NCBI GenBank assembly: GCA_033439255.1
Contig: JAVRDV010000016.1
Coordinates: forward strand, 372,001-436,000
From: Hericium rajendrae
Taxonomy: Eukaryota > Basidiomycota > Agaricomycetes > Russulales > Hericiaceae
Direction: 5' to 3'
Length of the DNA: 64,000 nt
Below, in pieces: positions 49,254 to 64,000 of this stretch. The position numbers were made by a program, and so were the translations under genes. Within the stretch, counting starts at the first letter, position 1, and every line of letters starts with the position of its first letter. A model generated the notes under the pieces. It ran no database searches. It was not told the origin of the DNA and saw only the letters and a program-made list of their open reading frames with translations.

Positions 49254-50116
49254 GCAATAAGCAATCAATGTTCGTGATGCATTTGGCGCGGCTTCCTGTT
49301 ATACTTGCTGATCTTCCTGCCCAAGGCATTTCAGCTTTGTATATACCCCAATTTTCGACCTATCATGACGTCGTGTTTTCATACTGTAGGTCCGTGTAAT
49401 ACTTCGTAGTGTATTCAGGCTACGGCAAGCCCAATGTCTTTTGCAGTGCCATTGTAAGCGTCAACTGTCATCGGCCGTCTGCTTCAAGCCACAACGTTTC
49501 CTGTTCATTTCAGCCCTTCATAGCGTCCCTGCATTCGTGAGAGGTCGGGCGATGTTCGAGTTACCGACAGATGCCCCCTAGCACCATAAGGTCTACGCGA
49601 CATGATCTCTCAAACCTGGATCAGAGGACGGCTTTCCTACTACCTCCGACCGCATAGTGTCGGCGTGGTGTACTGTGTAGTTTATCGCAATCTGCGCAAA
49701 AATCCTGCGCGGGTGCCTAGCCTAGAATGGCTAACGGAAGAGAAATTGTTCCGACGCTGACGTTGATTCCTTCGCCGACGTCCAGTTGTCGTTTTCACAG
49801 CACACAGCATTAAGCACAGCACTATCATTATCCCGGCCGATCTCGCGAATGGGTAACTTACATACCTATGTATAGAAGAGAAGACTTCTATGACCGAGCC
49901 GCTATTCACAAGGCTGTGAAGCCCCACCATTGGCCAACGCCTTCCACTGAGGGACAATAAAGCAAACCAACCTCAGTCCTGTGCATGTTGCTCCCACAAC
50001 TTTTCAGACCCCCTGCACACCTGCAATTGCTCAAGTTGAAGTCGGTGAGCGGAATTCACCGTCTTGATTGCCATGATCGGGGCTTATTTACGATCATCCG
50101 ACGTTGCAGGACCTTA
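49254..50116. other. Intergenic region upstream of the first Zn2Cys6 gene
   Basis: 863 bp. The open frame of the next gene extends upstream in phase to an ATG at 49985, but the added residues are not conserved-looking, so 50117 is preferred as the start. Nothing else was seen. Confidence 0.4.
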
Positions 50117-52513
50117 ATGGATTCGCGTCCGTCTAATAAAAGACCGAGTCCGTCTCCGCAGGCGGGGTCGTCTAGCAAGCGGCCCAAATCCCTCCGAGCT
50201 TGTCTGGCCTGTCGCAAGCAGAAATGCAAGTGCGAATACAAGCTAGGATATGACCATACTTGCCAGCGCTGCCGCACGCTCAACCTCGTCTGCACGTTCA
50301 ACAACGATGAAGACACTGTCGCGCTGCTGTCTATAGATGCGCGACACGGTTCAGACCAGCCCAACAGTCCGGACGAGTCGTCTGTAGAGATGGCAGCGCG
50401 CATCGAGACCCTGGAGGCGGCTGTCCAGTCTCTCCTGGCCGCGCAAGGCTACGAGTCTCTCGACGCGTACCGACTAAATTTCGAGGAGCTTGCTGCGTCC
50501 TCTCCCGCGTCTTCCCAGCCCGCCGCTCAGTCGCCAGACTCGATTCCTATGAAGTCAACTTCTGACTCTGACATTCTGTCCATCCCGATACACCGATGGT
50601 CGGTGCCGTCCCTGGCAGTCCGCGACTTCATCCTGAATCAGAGAGGCCCGCAGTCTCGCTCGACCTCCGGTGTGAATTTGACTTTGAGCGGCCTCATAAC
50701 ACCGAAGCTCAGCGAGGATCTTCTGCGTATGTGCGTAGGACCGGGGTCTTCAGCTCATCCGTAATGTCTGACAGTCGCATTGTTCTTCTAGATTCGGGCA
50801 GCTGTACCAGCCATGGCTGCCATATACAGTGCCGCTACCACCGTCCTCCATCCTGCTCCTCCTGACCGTCTACGTGCTGGCCTTCCGCCACCTGCCCGTA
50901 TCGGCGAGGCGCGCATCACTGTACCAAGCGGTCTTGCAGCGGTTCTACAACTGCCTGATGGCCTCGCTGATGTCGTTCTGCACGGAGGTCGAGACGGTCT
51001 TCGCGCTCTCGATCATCTACAAGTGGGCACCGCCCGCACCGCCCGGCACGGACATTAGCTACTGCCAACCTGCGTTCTTGCTCGGTGTTGCGTCCCGATT
51101 TATGACTAGCCTCGAAGTCGACCACGCGCCGGCGATAGTGCTTCAGACCAAGCGGAATCCCACGGCGTTTGGGAATCTGTCGGCAGAGGAGCTGAACGCT
51201 GTTCTCGAAAAGGCGCGCCTGGTATGTACGCCATCGTGATTCCATATCCACAATGAACCTAACGAGTTTCCTAGCAATATACGATCTCCTTAGATAGGAA
51301 CGCGTGAGTACCTTCACTTTACGGCTTGTAAGGTGCCAATTCAACCGCTAAATCATCATTTCACTTCAGAGCAATACTTGGCACAAGCCTGCCTCCAATT
51401 CCATTCCCAGATCCACAGCCTGCCTTGGTTCTGGGCCCGCCAGACGTCAGCAACCCGGAAAACTGTCGTGATGCTCGCATGATCTACTATTTTGCTCTCC
51501 TGCAGATCGCCACCGAGGGCATGGAGATTCCTGGGCCCGGTGCTTCTGCCGTGGGGCCTGGACCTGGCTGGCTGAACGCCCTCGTGCAGCACGGCGACGC
51601 GGTGCTTCATAAGCTTGACGAATGGGACGCGGACTTCACTCGTGTGCTTGGTAGGCCGAGCCCATTGCCCTTTGTCAGTCGCTCGGCGCTGATTAAGACT
51701 CGCACAGCGAACGTCCCCGATTCCCAGGTCTTCTACTTCCGCGTGCTCCACTGGGAGTACTGGGGCTACCGCCTCATGATCCTGACTCGCCTTATCGTTG
51801 CGTGCAGGCATGGAGATTCTTCCGACCTGCCGTTGAATGCCATCGGCTATCTTCACGAGACGCGCTTGGCGCATTTATCGCGGTGGAGCTCGCTATCGGG
51901 CCCCGTTGCAGAGGCCATCGTGCGCGACGCCGTAGTAGGCGACGAGCTCCTGGATATTCTAGCCGTCGTCCCCGACCACGTCTTCAATACGGTCATGTTC
52001 GCTACTGCGTACATCATCAAGGGCCAGACCTGGTCGCTCGATTACACCGTCGGCGAAGTCAAGTACGAGGAGACGGACGCCATCGTGAACCGCCTCGTCG
52101 AGATGCTGGACAAGATCTCGCTCCGGAACGACCACCTACCGAAGAAATTCGTCGCTCTGATTCACGCACTCATGCGCAGCTGGAAGGAAAAGCGACGGCG
52201 GCTGCGAAGGGCCGCGGAACGCTGGGTCTCCACGCGACCGGGGAGATCGAGCGACAGCCTGAGCACGAGCTCGACCGCCGGGCCTGTATCGCCTCTGAAT
52301 GGCGTCGTTGGCGATGTCTTCAACCTGCCATCCTTCGACGTTATGGCTTTCGATGGAGATCCTATCATGCAGTACGCCGGTGCTCCGGATGTTTCCCTCG
52401 ACCAGTTGGTGGACATGTTTGGGTACAATTTCTCCCAGCCGTCGCTGCCATCTCAACCGCAGTACGCCCAGTCCTCACCGCAAGCACAGCACTCATTCTG
52501 GCCGCCGGCCTAA
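50117..52513 (+). CDS. Zn2Cys6 fungal transcription factor
   Basis: A probable nuclear regulator with unknown targets. The start at 50117 gives MDSRPSNKRPSPSPQAGSSS; an in-frame ATG at 49985 is possible. The binuclear cluster is LRACLACRKQKCKCEYKLGY then DHTCQRCRTLNLVC, with the C-x2-C-x6-C-x9-C-x2-C-x6-C spacing plus one extra Cys inside the basic loop, all in one exon. A short coiled coil (MAARIETLEAAVQSLLAAQG) follows. The fungal-specific middle region spans about 50785-52180: FGQLYQPWLPYTVPLPPS, VFYFRVLHWEYWGYRLMILT and VMFATAYIIKGQTW. An intron after LLR (donor GTGCGT near 50732) and small introns near 51223-51370 restore the frame. The C-terminal end is Pro/Gln-rich (SLPSQPQYAQSSPQAQHSF). 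It lacks the micro-exon arrangement of its downstream neighbours. Confidence 0.9.
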
Positions 52514-54629: not shown

Positions 54630-57600
54630 ATGTCTTCAGCGGACGAAGATCCTAACGAGAATGAGAATGCCCAGAACGCGAAGAAGCGGAGGGTCCAGAG
54701 AGCCTGTGATGTTTGCAGGCGAAAGAAAAGTACGTGTTTTCTGACTCGGATCTAAGTACATATGCTCATGTTATTGGTAGTACGATGTAGGTTGCCATGC
54801 GCAAGATGGTGGTATCTAATTCCAAATTCCTAACGGTTCTTTCAGGTGATGGAGGTCAGATGCCGGGTAACAGATGCTCGAACTGTATCGCGTACAACTT
54901 CGAATGCACGTATGTCGAGGCAGCCAAGGTATGTACTCCTAACGGTTGATATCCATCCGAACGCTCTAAACGACCGTCCGATGTAGAAACGCGGGCCTCC
55001 GAAGGGGTGCGTACATATTCCACTATCATACTTCCGCATAATTCACCCCTTTCCCGTAGGTACGTCGAGAGCCTCGAGTCGCGTCTAGAGAAGATGGAGG
55101 CTCTGCTGCAGCGGGTACGCCGTTTCATCCTGTACTCCGAATTCTGAGTCATTGACAGAGCCCCAGCTATGCCCCGATGCCGATTTCTCACAAGAGCTTG
55201 GCATGCAGTTAGACCGAGATAGCTGGCCTCGTGACGGTCGTGCTGTCGACAGACCACCTGGTATCACCGTCAACAGTGGCTCAAACCTCACATCATCTCG
55301 TATGCCCTCCCCGGCTCCTAAGGCAGGAGAGAGCAGCGAGGCTACTCCTGGCAACGATGAATTGGAACCTAGCGACGACGAATACGTGCAAACGAAACTT
55401 CTGCAGGAGCGAATGCGAGAACTCTCTATCAACCCAATGCAGAATAGATTCTTCGGCAAGTCCAGCGGCGTGAGACTCGTCCAGACGGCTCTTGATCTCA
55501 AGTCTGAGTATTCCGGGAAAGAACCGCAAGATGCTCATACCGATATGCTCCGACGACCTGAGTTCTGGACGCTACACCCAGTCAGTACGGCTTTTCTGCT
55601 ACCGAGGCGATACACTAAGCAGTCTTTTGCAGTGGGAACGCGTGGAGCTTCACTCGGATACAGGCAAATACACATATCCAACACAGGAACTGATCCTGGA
55701 TCTCGTCAACCTATATTTCAAGCATATCAACGTACTTCTACCGCTCTTGCACCGCCCAACGTTCGAAGCGGCCCTTGCGGACGGCCTTCATCATCGTGAT
55801 GAAGGCTTCGGCGGCGTGCTGCTCCTCGTCTGCGCTTGCGGCTCCCGATATTCCAACGACGAGCGCGTTCTACTCGAGGGCACGGAGTCATGGCACTCTG
55901 CCGGATGGAAGTGGTTCTCACAGGTGCAGATGGTCCGCAAAGCCCTTCTGACGGCCCCATGTTTGTATGACCTGCAGATGTATTCGGTACGTCTGTTATC
56001 ATCTTGCGATGGTCGGCGGTGGCTCAGGCATTTGGGTAGCTGGCTGTATTGTATCTCCAAGGTTGCTCTGCGCCGCAAGCGTGTTGGACTATGGTCGGTA
56101 TCGGAATACGTGTCGCGCAGGATGTTGGTGCCCATCGGCGAAAAGTCTATAATGCGACGATCACTGTTGAAGATGAACTCTGGAAGCGGGCATTCTGGTA
56201 AGCCTATCCTTGGTCTTGTGTGGAGCAACGTCCGCTGACCTAATTGATTAGGATTTTGGTTGTTTTAGACAGATTAATGAGCTCTTCGCTCGGCCGACCT
56301 TGCGCCATCCAGGAGGAAGAGTCAGTCCATTTGTTACTCGGTCATACACCCCAATCTGATTGACATACTTATCAGTTTTGATATCGATTTTCCAACTGAA
56401 TGCGACGATGAATATTGGACCCATCCTGACCCCGAGCAAGCATTCAAGCAGCCGCCGGGGAAGGAGACTTACATGTCTTATTTTATTTGCTTTTTAAAGC
56501 TTAATCAGATCCTGGCTTTCGCTTTGAGGACAATAGTGAGCACAGCATGATTCTTGCTTTGCGTAATTTCTAATCGTGTCCGATTTAGTACTCCATCAAC
56601 AAGTCAAAGATCCTGCTGGGTTTTGTGGGCCAGCAATGGGAGCAGCATACCGTTGCGGAACTTGACTCCGCCTTGAATAAATGGATAGATTCCGTCCCAG
56701 ATCATTGTATGTTCAGATCAGATCTGACAAGGTCTATACTGACTTTGGTGATTCCGTCAGTGCGTTGGGATCCTACTCGAGAGCATGACATATTCTTCCT
56801 GCAATCTGCCAGCCTCTATTGCACATACTACCACCTGCAAATCCTCATCCACCGCCCCTTCATCCCCTCGCCTCGAAAACCATCTCCACTGTCTTTTCCG
56901 TCCCTTGCCATTTGCACTAATGCAGCGCGATCATGTAGTCACGTCATCGACATCCAGCGGCGTCGCACACCCGGTACACCGTTTCCTAACTTACAGGTCA
57001 GATAAACCTAATCCCCTTACCCCCTTCCAGGCTTATATGGCTCATTGATCCTTGTCCAGCTGCCTGTCTTCACAGCTGCAGTCGTGTTGCTGCTGAGTAT
57101 ATGGGGTGTAAAGCGATCAGGCGTGTCCATTGATCCTGTCAAGGAGATGGAAGACGTACATAAGTGCATGCGGGTGCTCAAGGATGCCGAAACTAGGTAC
57201 GTACTGGCCCTACTCATATGATCAGCTTCTGATACAACGGTCTCATAGATTCCATGGAGCCGGGAGACTATGGTATGTTGTCAGAGCGCTAAACTGTGGA
57301 ACTTCTGATGCATTTTTTGTGAACACATCTAGGGATGTGCTCTACGAGTTAGCCTCGGTAGGCGACTTGCCCTTGCCGCAGCCCAGTCCCGCTGCGTCCG
57401 TCAAGCGTGAGCGGGACTCCGACAGCGTTTCAAACAACTCTTCACCTGCAGCTGCCGTCTCTTCGCCGACCACGCCACAATCGCAGGATGCGCCACGTAA
57501 CATCGCAGGCTCAAGACGAGTCTCCACCCAGACTGCCTCTAGATCGAACAGTTTGTCAATGCGCCAGTCTTCGTCGTCCACCACGCAGCCACCCGTGGTG

Positions 57601-58240
57601 CCATCGCAGCAAATACACACTTCTCCCCTCGCCACGAATCCCTATTCGTACACCTCACATCCCATGAGCAGTGATGAACTCGGGCGGATGCCTATATATC
57701 CTAATATTCCCCAGGCTCCCGCATCTATGGGTCCGTCCATCGACTCTCTCACCAACATGTGGTACATGCACAGCGGACATGGACCCGAGGCGGCGTCTGG
57801 CAGCACCCATCGCTATGATCGGGCCGATGACCTCGCAGGGATGTTCCCCGTCGACCAGCTGGTGGGCGAGGCCATCTTCACGCAGGGCCTCGATATGCCC
57901 CTGGGTGGCCCGTGCATGATGGGCGGCACACAGCAGGCGAACGGATACGGCTACCACGGGATGTCGTCGGGACAGAGCGGGCACATGCAGCCGTCGGATC
58001 CCGGACGATCGACCTACGGGATGGTGCAGGACCCACAGGGAAATACACGCGCCGTTCCGAGCCAACAGAGCGCTGCCCCGTGGGCTGCGGCGCCTACGGG
58101 CTTCGAGTGAGTCTTCGGGTAACGTCCTTGCGCCAAGCCACTCACACTTCCCCGCCCGCAGGTTGGACGACTGGGACGCGTATCTCGCGACCATATCGGG
58201 CATACAGCAGCATATGCCGGGCGCTCCGCCTGGACATTAG
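54630..58240 (+). CDS. Zn2Cys6 transcription factor with 6-nt micro-exon (paralogue A)
   Basis: A probable nuclear regulator. The start at 54630 gives MSSADEDPNENENAQNAKKR. The zinc cluster is CDVCRRKKIRC, a nine-residue spacer, then CSNCIAYNFEC (Cys at residues 26, 29, 36, 46, 49, 56). Residues 34-35 and the first base of Cys36 come from a 6-nt micro-exon, TACGAT at 54781-54786. A coiled coil follows (YVESLESRLEKMEALLQR). The fungal_trans region includes FFGKSSGVRLVQTALDLKSE, FKHINVLLPLLHRPTFEAAL, GFGGVLLLVCACGSRYS and LQILIHRPFIPSPRKPSPLS. A 24-nt mini-exon at 57249-57272 encodes FHGAGRL. The long Ser/Gln/Met-rich C-terminal region may activate. A last small exon gives LDDWDAYLATISGIQQHMPG and ends at 58240. 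At least 13 introns are needed. It is the tandem paralogue of the gene at 59018, with the same domain order and intron positions. Confidence 0.92.
54781..54786 (+). other. 6-nt micro-exon in the zinc cluster (paralogue A)
   Basis: TACGAT lies between an intron at 54730-54780 (GTACGT ... GGTAG) and one at 54787-54845 (GTAGGT ... TTCAG). It completes the codons Ile, Arg and Cys, restoring the C-x6-C spacing of the zinc cluster. Skipping keeps the frame but removes the Cys. Confidence 0.85.
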
Positions 58241-59017
58241 ACAGCGTTTTTTTTTGATCATCGTGGTGTAGCGTTCGTTTCGCCCTCGTAGCTGTCGCAC
58301 TGTTGTCTCTTTATACTTCATTCACGCTCTTCGTTCGTATACTAATGCTCCCCGTGTATCAATAGTTCCATCCGGAGATTATCGCGTGTATAAATAGCGA
58401 AGCTTTCTCCTGCTGCCATAGACGATCTTGCATGTGAATTTTGCATCGGGCAATATGAGGATACCGATTTCTGCACGTTGTTAGACGCTTGTTGGATGAT
58501 CCGTGGTTCGAGGACCCATTGTGCGCGATTCCATTGGATTTGTGGTTTCATGTCTGCCAATCATCCACAGCGACGGGCGCCGTGCTATAGTGACCGCCGT
58601 TCGGTATCGTACAGTGGGCTTACGCGCTCCTCTGCCTGGGTATGGGGTCAAAGAAAACTCTGCTGGTTGCACTCTGGTGTACTGCGTGCCGCTCTGGTGT
58701 ACTACGTGCCGCCTTGTCGGACAGTCAAGCCGAACGCTGACTTTGGCCTGACTCTGCCTGACTCGGCTGAAAAATATGTAACCAGCACAGTTCTGTTTGC
58801 TTCTTTTTTCCACTCATTGGATTCTTGACATCCAATCAGCCTCGTCAGCGAACTGCCCGAGGGCCGAAAAGGACACGATCGAACAAATGATCATTTACGA
58901 GACCTGCCATATATAGGGCACGATGCCGGAGTAGACGCGGCCCCGGAAAGGGCCTTACATTCGGAACAGCCTCCCGCGGCAGTAAGTCCCATTGCCCATT
59001 CTGTCTCATTCTTCAAC
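58241..59017. other. Intergenic region between the tandem paralogues
   Basis: 777 bp. It contains a 20-bp direct repeat (CTCTGGTGTACTGCGTGCCG at 58672-58691 and a copy with one change at 58692-58711). TATATAG at 58910-58916, about 105 bp before the start codon at 59018, is a candidate TATA box. Confidence 0.5.
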
Positions 59018-62000
59018 ATGTCGTCTGGAGAGGAAGACTTCAGCGAGCGCGAAACCGAGAAAGCCAAGGAGTTGAAGAAGCGGCGGGTACAGAGTCAGCG
59101 TGCGTGCGATAGATGTAGGCTCAAGAAAGGTGCGTCCCTGAGTTAAGACTAACTGTATGACGATCATGTGCTGACGGTAGTTGGCGAACCACGATCTGCA
59201 GTCCGATGTACGCAGAATGCTCTGCTTCATACTGCTCACCAGTTGACACGGCTGTGTAGGCAATGGCGGCCAGGAGCTCGGAAAGAAGTGTTCGAATTGC
59301 GAAGCGTATGACTTCGACTGCACATACAACGAGGCCACCAAGGTGCGATGTTCACTCATGCAGGGGAGCCTGGTGTCTTATCATAAATGCAGAAACGTGG
59401 GCCATCCAAACGGTTGGTTGCTTACTGCATTCGCGCCGTAGTTCGTTAATTAATGGACGGAAGATATGTGGATAGTCTCGAAGCTCGGCTCGAGAAAATG
59501 GAGGATTTGCTGAAAAAGGTGTGTCTGGAAACAGGTATTCTTCGATTGTCCAGTGACATGTTATATCTTCCAGGCTTATCCGGAAAGTGATGACTTGCTC
59601 GCTCAGGCCGGACCCTCCCAAGAGGCACAAGCAGGAGGAGCAAGCACACCATCAACCGATTACTACAGCGACGATGACTTCGAGCCTAGCGAAGCCATCC
59701 AACAGAAGCTCAGCGCAATGTGTCTGCACCCAATGTCCAACCGCTTCTTCGGGAGATCTAGTGGCGTCATGCTGTTGCAAACTGCGTTGGAGCTCAAATC
59801 AGAATATTCCGGCGTCGACCAGGGTAAGTTTGACACCACTCACGGGCCCCATCGAAAGGACAGCTGGGCAATGCATCCCGTGAGTCCGCTATGGGCATCA
59901 TCAGCTATTCATGCTCATTGCCATATCTTCGGCAGTGGGAGATAGCCAATTTTATGCCAGAACGGCAAAAATACGATTTCCCTGAAGCAGACCTTCTGGC
60001 CCATCTTATTGACTTATACTTCAAATATGTCAACATATTTATGCCCCTCCTTCATCGCCCAAGTTTCGAGAAAGCCCTCGCGGACGGTCTCCAATATCAT
60101 GACGAAGGTTTCGGCAGCGTGCTTCTCCTGGTTTGCTCCACAGCGGCCAGATATTCCTCGGACTCGCGCGTACTCCTCCCCGGAATTGATAACTGGCAAT
60201 CATGTGGCTGGCGATGGTTCCGGCAGATCAGGCTGACGCATAGGTCCATCATCGCCGCCGGTTGTCTTTGCGATTTGCAACTTTACGCAGTAAGCGCACG
60301 CTGACCAGTGATATTCGAGCCGTTCTAGCTCACGCAGCATTCTTATAGCTATCTATCTTATTCTTACATGGTTGTTCTCCTCCGCATGCTTGCTGGACCA
60401 CCGTTGGCATCGGCATTCGTCTGGCGCAGGACGTGGGTGCTCACCGCCGGAGAATGTATTCTAACACGCCGAATGCCGATGATGAGCTATTGAAGAGAGC
60501 ATTCTGGTAATGTCTTTCAAATATTTCCCTCATATAGCGCTCTTATGTTCATGCTGGAAAAGGGTACTTATTGCTCTGGATCGTTGGATGAGTTCTATTT
60601 TGGGCCGTCCGTGTGCCATATCGGAGGAAGAGTGAGCAATAATCCTCCATCACAAATTCTCGCCATATCCTTATTCATCCCAACAGCTTCGATGTGGAAC
60701 TTCCAATTGATTGCGATGACGAATATTGGGATCATCCAGATCCCGAAAAAAGGTTCAAACAGCCTCCAGGAAACCCATCGAAACTGTCCTACTTCAACGC
60801 TTTCCTGAAGCTGACTTCGATACATGCCTCCACGCTTAAAACCATTGTCAGTGCCACTTCCAGTTCAGGTGTATCCGCACTTACCTTGTTGTCCCGCAGT
60901 ACGCGACCAATAAGTCACGGGTTATGCATGGTTATGGCGGCGAGGAGTGGGAGCAACATGTTGTCGCCGACCTGGACTCGCAGCTCAATAGCTGGGTAGA
61001 CAACATTCCCCAGCATCGTAAGTTATTCTTCCTGCATCCCTTTTCTGTCTAATCTGGCGATAGTCCGTTGGGATCCAACAATGAAAAGCCATCTCTGGCT
61101 CGCGCAGTCAGGAAGCCTTTATTTGAGCTATTACTACCTACAAATTCAAATCCACCGCCCCTTCATCCCCTCAGTACGCAAGCCATCGTCCCTTTCTTTT
61201 CCATCCCTTGCCATCTGCACGAATGCGGCGCGGGCGTGTAGTAACATGACCGAGGTTCTGCGCGTCCGTCTGAAGCATCTTTATGCGCCGAATTTCCAGG
61301 TAAGTGTGGATTCATAGACATTGCGGCTATGTCCTTCGTCTGACATGCTGATGAAGGTACCTGCATTTGTTGCGGGTGTTATCTTGCTCGTGAGTATATG
61401 GGGTGCGAAGCGGTCTGGGATGTCGCTCGATCCGGCAAAGGAGATGCAAGACGTTTATAAATGCATCAAACTGCTGAATTTATCGGAGGCAAGGTATAGA
61501 GATGTTTTGCAAGTCTTCCGTCTGCATTTTGCTCATGCGATTTTAGATGGCATATTGCGGGGAGATTACGGTACGCGCGCCTTGTGCATCTCCAGGAGTT
61601 CCTATTGACAACCGTCCGTGACGAATTAGTGATTTATTGTGCGAGCTGGCTACCATCGGAGAGTTGCCACTGCCGGAACCCAGTCCACCATCATATAAGC
61701 GGAGAGCAGAGGACGATTTTCCTGGCGTCGGCCAGCCCCTCAGTCCTGCCTCCTCCACGACCACCCAATCTTCGCCTGCAGCCGACGCCCTATCCGAGGG
61801 ACAGCGTAAATTTGCTGGCTCCCGTCGTGTCATGCAATCGTCTTCAAGTCAGGCCCCGTACCCTGCGCAGACCTCCATGCAACAGCAAAAGTACACGTCC
61901 TCTACGCCCTTCGACACCGACCAAGAGCTCTCTGACTCTGCTGGATACTCCTATCTGAACACGCCTACCCCGGCGGCCACGGGTCTCCGCCGCACACAAG

Positions 62001-62590
62001 AGTCCACCGCGAGCCCACCTGTCGCAGGGCCAGCATACCATTTTCCGCCGTCTGATCCAAAGCGGCGGCACGTCAACGGGTCGCGGTATAACATGGACCC
62101 CGCGCCGGGCTCAAGCAGGACAGGCGCGTTCAACCCACCACCACAGTTCCATGCCCCGGCTCCGCGCACCGCGTTTGGTGAGATGGGCCCCACCTCCCTA
62201 AATGTGCCTCCAGAACTGGACAAAATCCCGGGGATGTCGTATTTTAGCCAGGACTTGGGACCCGCGCCCGCTGCTGCCCCTGCGCCCATGCAATATCACG
62301 GAACAGCAGCTGTGAACCCGGATCCGTTGGCGTCCTTTTCGGAGCAGCCGTTCGATCCGCAGGACCGGGCGGCGTTCGAGTATGCGTTGGAGGACTTGGC
62401 GACGGACGGGCAGTTTGGGGTGGACAGAGACACGATGATGATGTGGTCTACGCTTCCGGTGGCGGTCGAGTGCGTTCTTTCTTGTCTTACGGGTGTTGCT
62501 CGATGCTGACGATTCGCATGTAGCGGCGAGGACTGGGACACGTTCATGTCGAATGCTGCTGGCTGGTCGAATTTCCCCAGTCAACAGTAG
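59018..62590 (+). CDS. Zn2Cys6 transcription factor with 6-nt micro-exon (paralogue B)
   Basis: A probable nuclear regulator. The start at 59018 gives MSSGEEDFSERETEKAKELK. The zinc cluster is CDRCRLKKVRC, nine residues, then CSNCEAYDFDC (Cys at residues 30, 33, 40, 50, 53, 60). Residues 38-39 and the first base of Cys40 come from a 6-nt micro-exon, TCCGAT at 59202-59207. The coiled coil is YVDSLEARLEKMEDLLKK. The middle region (FFGRSSGVMLLQTALELKSE, FKYVNIFMPLLHRPSFEKAL, GFGSVLLLVCSTAARYSSD, LQIQIHRPFIPSVRKPSSLS) closely follows paralogue A. A 24-nt mini-exon (61547-61570) gives WHIAGRL. After ELATIGELPLPEPSP comes a long disordered Pro/Ala/Met-rich tail. A last small exon gives GEDWDTFMSNAAGWSNF and ends at 62590. 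Several middle introns near 60300-60520 and 60860-61090 are hard to place by eye. It lies about 500 bp upstream of galactokinase on the same strand. Confidence 0.9.
59202..59207 (+). other. 6-nt micro-exon in the zinc cluster (paralogue B)
   Basis: TCCGAT lies between introns at 59130-59201 (GTGCGT ... TGCAG) and 59208-59259 (GTACGC ... TGTAG). It encodes Val, Arg and the first base of the third Cys, at the same position as in paralogue A. Confidence 0.85.
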
Positions 62591-63087: not shown

Positions 63088-64000
63088 ATGGCTGCTCAAC
63101 TCCCTATACCCATCTACGATTCGCTCGATAAACTGTACGGAGATCTGGGCAGCGCTGCAAACCATGCGTACGTATCGTGACGATCTATCCAGTGAAACAA
63201 ATGGTAATGTTTCCCAGGGTGCGATGGAACCATCTCACTGAAGAGTTTGAGAAACGATTTGGGCGGAAGCCAGCCTTCATTGCCCGAGCTCCAGGCCGTG
63301 TGAAGTGAGTAGTCTGTGCGCAGGGCCCCGACGATTTATGCAGCCGCGGGTCATTAACATTCCCGTGTTTCTAGTCTCATCGGTGAACACATCGACTACG
63401 CTCTTTTCCCTGCGCTGCCTGCTGCCATCGAGCGTGACATCCTGATCGCATGTGCCCCCCGCGCGTCCTCCTCCCCAGGCCATGTCCATGCACAGAACCT
63501 ATACGAAAAGTACAAACCCACGACCTTTACGCCGAAGAGAAGAAGGTCAGTCACGGAAGGCCCCAGCGACGAGGAAGTGCACCTAGAAGAATGGGAGCTG
63601 GGCATTGACAGGAAAGAGCTCAGGTGGGAAAGCTACGTCAAGGCGGGATATTATGTCCGTGGACTTTCGTGCAGCGGACGATTCGTCGTTCTTATCTATG
63701 TTTCCAGGGCGTGCTCAATCGGTTCTTCGCGCCGGAAGCAGGATCCCTGCAGACTCAAGCCCCGGTCCCAGTCGATCTGCTGGTGACGGGGACCGTGCCC
63801 GCCGGCTCGGGCCTCTCATCGTCTGCGGCGATGGTCGTAGCGTCTACGCTCGTCTTCCTGGCAGTGAACAACAAGCTCGAAGGGATCAGCAAAGGCACGC
63901 TTGTCGAGATGGCCATGGAGAACGAGAAGCGCGTCGGCGTGAACAGCGGTGGGTGCGTACACGTCGAGCACCCGCTGTTAAGATGCACACTGATGGTCCT
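63088..64000 (+). CDS. GAL1: Galactokinase, 5' part (continues beyond window)
   Basis: A GHMP kinase that phosphorylates galactose to galactose-1-phosphate in the Leloir pathway, in the cytosol. The start at 63088 gives MAAQLPIPIYDSLDKLYGDL. Three introns follow: about 63169-63217 (AVRWNHLTEEF restored), about 63304-63373, and near 63653-63707. The galactokinase signature APGRVNLIGEHIDYALFPAL is split by intron 2 after V, and the ATP-binding GHMP motif PAGSGLSSSAAMVVASTLVF lies near 63796-63855. MAMENEKRVGVNSGG follows, ending in a GT donor (GTGCGT at about 63952), after which the window cuts the gene. A Lys/Arg-rich insertion (TPKRRRSVTEGPSDEE, about 63531-63580) sits between the first two motifs. 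No defects are seen. Confidence 0.93.

Follow-up and report, generated by a model that had tools for sequence, protein, structure and literature searches.

Splicing has been reported to determine whether certain fungal Zn2Cys6 regulators carry an intact DNA-binding domain. In Trichoderma virens, a glucose-dependent microexon switch removes the Zn2Cys6 domain of Xlr2: a 20-nucleotide (nt) microexon is included without glucose and is left out of transcripts with glucose (PMC11121469). A form of Xlr2 lacking the DNA-binding domain is proposed in the same report, with the authors' own reservation that translation of this form could be impeded by its upstream start codons. In Rhizopus delemar, a two-residue exon has been described within the Zn2C6 domain of I1CF81 as part of the CeGAL study (PMC10141177). 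Very small exons are also known from other fungal genes, reaching down to 1 nt in Cryptococcus neoformans (PMC3990503); Fusarium CYP621A has a required exon of 1 nt, and the Phanerochaete cytochrome P450 CYP5141A1 has an exon of 8 nt (PMC12940212). The subject here is a 6-nt exon inside the zinc cluster of two tandem regulator genes, A and B, of the basidiomycete Hericium rajendrae (contig JAVRDV010000016.1, assembly GCA_033439255.1). The window is the 64,000-nt stretch from position 372,001 to 436,000 of the forward strand; coordinates below are counted from its first letter, and all features lie on the + strand. An earlier note on this DNA had proposed that skipping of the exon could serve as an in-frame switch that abolishes DNA binding. 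Analysis of the sequence favors a different reading, with a probability of about 0.8, in which this micro-exon is spliced in constitutively, as one of the many small parts of two intron-dense genes.

Gene A (54630-58240) is predicted to encode a Zn2Cys6/Fungal_trans regulator of 928 residues in 16 exons, which form one open frame across 15 GT-AG introns. Its paralogue, gene B (59018-62590), likewise has 16 exons and 15 GT-AG introns and encodes 914 residues; the two genes are arranged head to tail. Both models were assembled manually, the introns of one paralogue being placed partly by comparison with the other, and both gene structure and splicing were read from genomic DNA alone. The full gene A model scores 40.7 bits for Zn_clus and 108.7 bits for Fungal_trans (PF04082), and the first 679 residues of gene B score 37.5 and 94.4 bits, respectively, against Pfam cut-offs of 21 bits for Zn_clus and 23 bits for Fungal_trans. 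Both proteins thereby combine a six-cysteine Zn_clus domain with Fungal_trans, as Zn2Cys6-Fungal_trans (CeGAL) regulators do.

The zinc cluster is divided over the first three exons of each gene. In gene A, exon 1 (54630-54729) supplies the start codon and the first two zinc-cluster cysteines (CDVCRRKK), followed by the 51-nt intron 1 (54730-54780), the six-base exon 2, TACGAT (54781-54786), the 59-nt intron 2 (54787-54845), and exon 3 (54846-54928), which encodes the remainder of the cluster with Cys 4-6. In gene B, exon 1 (59018-59129) is followed by a 72-nt intron 1 (59130-59201), which exceeds the other 29 introns of the pair in length, then exon 2, TCCGAT (59202-59207), the 52-nt intron 2 (59208-59259), and exon 3 (59260-59342) with the rest of the cluster. 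All four flanking introns are GT-AG and phase 1, in agreement with the earlier observation of a 6-nt exon between same-phase introns in both genes. Because both introns have this phase, the six bases complete the codon for Ile in A or Val in B, encode Arg, and begin the codon for Cys 3. The gene A protein reads CDVCRRKKIRCDGGQ and the gene B protein CDRCRLKKVRCNGGQ when the micro-exon is included, and CDVCRRKKSDGGQ and CDRCRLKKGNGGQ when it is skipped. Skipping thus converts Ile-Arg-Cys to Ser in A and Val-Arg-Cys to Gly in B and leaves the downstream frame unchanged, exactly as the earlier note had calculated. Its further claim, that the third zinc ligand is removed, also holds: in alignments with GAL4 structures (PDB 7uik, 1d66, and 3coq), the lost residue corresponds to the third Cys of the DNA-binding domain. 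Encoded downstream and likewise aligned with GAL4, GYVESLESRLEKMEALL remains in frame in the skipped reading.

Two kinds of evidence bear on the nature of this exon, the rarity of a comparable one in shuffled sequence and the architecture in which it sits. The intronic stretch of each gene was shuffled 20000 times with preservation of dinucleotides, and a qualifying exon was defined as six bases between AG and GT, flanked on both sides by at least about 40 nt of intron, that yields [ILVM][RK]C in frame. Such exons appeared in 23 of 20000 shuffles for gene A and 51 of 20000 for gene B, and any AG-6-GT arrangement, regardless of what it encoded, in 2287 and 3272 of 20000. The real stretches each contain exactly one AG-6-GT site under the same rule, and in both cases it is the micro-exon. 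These counts argue that the 6-nt micro-exon is real coding sequence in both genes.

Genes A and B share 15 of 15 intron positions, and 12 of their 16 exons are identical in length, including exons of 6, 20, and 24 nt. In sequence the paralogues have diverged: the encoded proteins are identical at 428 of 870 aligned residues, and the genes agree at 75 of 199 four-fold sites. The 24-nt exon 14 lies at 57249-57272 in A and at 61547-61570 in B; exon 9 of B begins at 60563. The 20-nt exon 4 (54987-55006 in A, 59393-59412 in B) encodes part of the linker that follows the zinc cluster; its length is not a multiple of 3, so the frame would shift whether it is skipped in a transcript or missed in a model. 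As skipping of this exon would never preserve the frame, tiny exons in this pair need no switch to account for them. They need no special cause either, because random intron placement often produces them: when 15 introns were placed uniformly at random in 2787 nt, 37% of trials contained an internal exon no longer than 6 nt, 14% contained one that was also in frame, and 23% contained three or more internal exons of at most 24 nt. The presence of the micro-exon in both paralogues was considered as evidence for a switch and rejected, since every one of the 15 intron positions is shared, and the micro-exon belongs with the other two tiny exons to an inherited architecture. A search for a conserved intronic control element among the 15 A/B intron pairs found none clearly above shuffled sequence, the highest z value, 1.41, being that of intron 1. 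When the A/B alignment was scanned against viral contigs (40 pattern matches) and bacterial and archaeal genomes (591 pattern matches), no relative was confirmed; these being the collections covered, the result is no evidence of rarity.

In the constitutive reading, each flanking intron, at 51-72 nt, would be recognized as a unit by intron definition and removed singly. The six bases would normally always be included, because their flanking introns are each removed on their own, and once included they would complete the Zn2Cys6 cluster. Both introns would predate the duplication that produced A and B, and the pair of introns may have been retained because the DNA-binding domain is ruined when these six bases are lost. 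Any skipping would then be a low-level error, giving a product without zinc ligand 3. We infer, as the most likely state of affairs, that the exon is constitutively included, that this organism uses intron definition, that the introns are older than the duplication, and that skipping stays at error level. Figures published for other fungi are partly in accord. In Schizophyllum commune, 1% of the alternative events that fall in coding regions are exon skipping (PMC5034255), and the cassette-exon fraction in C. neoformans is 0.02, with intron definition predicted in that species (PMC2397502).

Several observations weigh on the other side. Exon skipping in S. commune rises to 21% of events once untranslated regions are counted, and a junction analysis of that fungus lists 1,527 coding-region exon-skipping events vs 7,851 alternative sites (PMC5034255). 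For Ustilago maydis the cassette-exon fraction is 0.21, and for Neurospora it is 0.20 (PMC2397502). The Xlr2 case suggests, by analogy, that regulation of a fungal Zn2Cys6 microexon is possible. The strength of the splice sites, measured relative to the remaining 29 introns of the pair, also deserves attention, with the reservation that ranks drawn from 30 introns of two related genes, whose models guided one another, form a small and non-independent sample. On this scale the exon 1 donor is strong (ranks 28 in A and 29 in B of 30), the micro-exon acceptor is middling (20 and 18), the micro-exon donor is weak (4 and 6), and the exon 3 acceptor is again strong (26 and 24). When the outer score is subtracted from the inner score and the 28 internal exons are ordered from the skipping-prone end, the micro-exon takes rank 2 in A and rank 6 in B, or ranks 6 and 9 if only the intron side of the donor is used. 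Finally, the fused introns that skipping requires, 116 nt in A and 130 nt in B compared with a range of 46-72 nt across the 30 introns, are not impossibly long.

The splice-site pattern is the sole hint toward a switch, and it is permissive rather than diagnostic of skipping, because much longer exons (exon 6 of A and exons 6, 13, and 15 of B) have similar inner-minus-outer ranks. The low score of the micro-exon donor arises in part because the coding sequence imposes GAT on its exon side; scored on the intron side alone, the donor ranks 6 in A and 13 in B of 30. The introns that flank the micro-exon are ordinary in length, with the exception of intron 1 of gene B.

Regulated in-frame skipping would join exon 1 to exon 3 and yield a product with the coiled coil and Fungal_trans but a broken zinc cluster, which might dimerize with the full-length form and block it. 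Preservation of the frame with loss of Cys 3 in both genes speaks for such a mechanism, the strong outer sites and weak micro-exon donor recur in both, and a regulated Zn2Cys6 microexon has its precedent in Xlr2 (PMC11121469). Even so, the mechanism is improbable here. The common intron positions already account for conservation of the micro-exon, none of the A/B intron pairs is notably conserved, the weakness of the donor is partly a coding effect, and skipping in coding regions of S. commune and cassette exons in C. neoformans are rare (PMC5034255, PMC2397502). Xlr2 is itself not an instance of in-frame skipping, because no reads are reported to join its exons 1 and 3 (PMC11121469). Of the earlier interpretation, then, the in-frame arithmetic and the loss of zinc ligand 3 stand, and the regulated switch and its dominant-negative product are unsupported; the switch is possible, a fair and testable hypothesis that gains no support at this locus. 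A more far-reaching version, in which the 6-nt exon would be an ancient in-frame cassette whose skipping is regulated in both paralogues to yield a zinc-dead dimerization partner, is very doubtful. In its boldest form the two-residue Zn2C6 exon of Rhizopus would be the same exon, which would then predate the split between the Rhizopus and mushroom lineages.

If splicing is regulated here at all, retention of an intron and skipping have much the same likelihood. Were intron 1 or intron 2 conditionally retained, this would add an early stop and so reduce the amount of full-length regulator, and an early stop does result for either intron in either gene (4 of 4 cases). Retention is the commonest type of event in S. 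commune (PMC5034255), and there are fitting precedents: intron 1 of Neurospora fluffy is kept at pH 8.0, which breaks the zinc cluster (PMC4821360), and intron 1 of Xlr2 is kept in some Trichoderma reesei transcripts (PMC11121469). In plants, 50 of 69 constitutive microexons have at least one flanking intron of delayed splicing (PMC8831610). The intron 1 donors of A and B are, however, among the strongest in both genes, at the ranks of 28 and 29 given above, and conditional retention seems unlikely as the explanation of this locus. A choice between two acceptors in gene B intron 1 is the least probable of the alternatives, and would make skipping the wrong variant to consider. An AG at 59179-59180 could compete with the acceptor at 59201; its use would, on a mechanical reading, give a 27-nt in-frame exon (CDRCRLKKVGEPRSAVRC) and insert seven residues between the second and third zinc ligands. 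It is preceded by a branch-like CTAAC 28 nt upstream, vs CTGAC 27 nt upstream of 59201. Nevertheless, its score of 3.3 is below the 5.8 of 59201; both values come from a matrix that includes the 59201 site, whose own score falls to 3.9 when it is left out. The insertion would also break the C-X6-C spacing, and no counterpart came to light in gene A, although one was not sought systematically there.

Even a constitutive micro-exon matters for annotation, as models without the six bases lose a zinc ligand. Pfam was rejected as a test for a dead, skipped domain, since the skipped form passes the cut-off. N-terminal fragments with the micro-exon score 45.6 bits (A) and 41.7 bits (B) for Zn_clus, and the skipped readings still score 29.0 and 27.0 bits, above the threshold of 21; the gene B reading that uses the 59180 acceptor scores 28.8 bits. 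For comparison, a six-cysteine domain whose coding sequence is uninterrupted, in another part of the window, reaches 31.8 bits when a 50-residue fragment is scored and 27.8 bits within its 267-residue frame. Because the skipped forms exceed the cut-off, a missed micro-exon would go unflagged and the resulting model would be annotated as a normal zinc-cluster regulator. If skipping were regulated after all, the paralogues would have in common a minimal switch that controls DNA binding at the RNA level.

Two neighbors of the pair were recorded. Upstream of gene A, at 49961-50761, lies a third Zn2Cys6 domain (RACLACRKQKCKCEYKLGYDHTCQRC), whose zinc cluster is encoded in one uninterrupted reading frame. 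A galactokinase gene (63088-64000) begins some 500 bases beyond the end of gene B and is cut off by the edge of the window; its first part scores 80.3 bits for GalKase_gal_bdg.

The statement that no system of this kind had been described for fungal Zn2Cys6 regulators was too strong, given how close Xlr2 comes (PMC11121469). Its narrower form survives: among the matches listed from the open-licence literature, judged mostly by title and the opening of the abstract, no in-frame skipped microexon within a fungal Zn2Cys6 domain, and no skipping to a Cys-less isoform, was recognizable. A possible case of exon skipping, that of RGS1 in Magnaporthe (PMC10041150), concerns a protein outside the Zn2Cys6 class and was left out of the comparison. 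Xlr2 resembles A and B in being a fungal Zn2Cys6/Fungal_trans regulator with a microexon inside the zinc cluster, and in both systems the exon is needed for the DNA-binding domain, in A and B because the codon for Cys 3 begins in it. The likeness is one of domain and micro-exon features; Xlr2 belongs to an ascomycete. The two systems differ in that the Xlr2 microexon is 20 nt long, encodes PCRRCE with two cysteines, and is not a multiple of 3, whereas that of A and B has 6 nt and contributes to one Cys. Condition-dependent isoforms are reported for Xlr2, and its expression with glucose involves two separate transcripts, unlike the in-frame skipping proposed for A and B (PMC11121469).

Other cases share single features with the locus. 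Neurospora crassa fluffy resembles the proposed switch in that condition-dependent splicing disrupts a Zn2Cys6 DNA-binding domain, but it does so by intron retention, and the available sections of the report mention no micro-exon (PMC4821360). Misprediction of Rhizopus I1CF81 leaves five of the six cysteines, just as a missed micro-exon would in A and B; that case is reported as an annotation error rather than as regulation (PMC10141177). The tiny exons of the P450 genes are, like the micro-exon of A and B, very small; each forms part of a conserved motif, and the protein is incomplete without it (PMC12940212). They do not belong to Zn2Cys6 genes, the C. neoformans genes with exons down to 1 nt are unnamed, and the available text of the two reports describes no skipping switch (PMC12940212, PMC3990503). 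The H. rajendrae micro-exon has the structural features of a constitutive fungal micro-exon, being very short, placed between canonical introns, and needed for a conserved motif, and genes A and B look like a tandem pair of ordinary zinc-cluster regulators with a real, constitutive-looking 6-nt exon.

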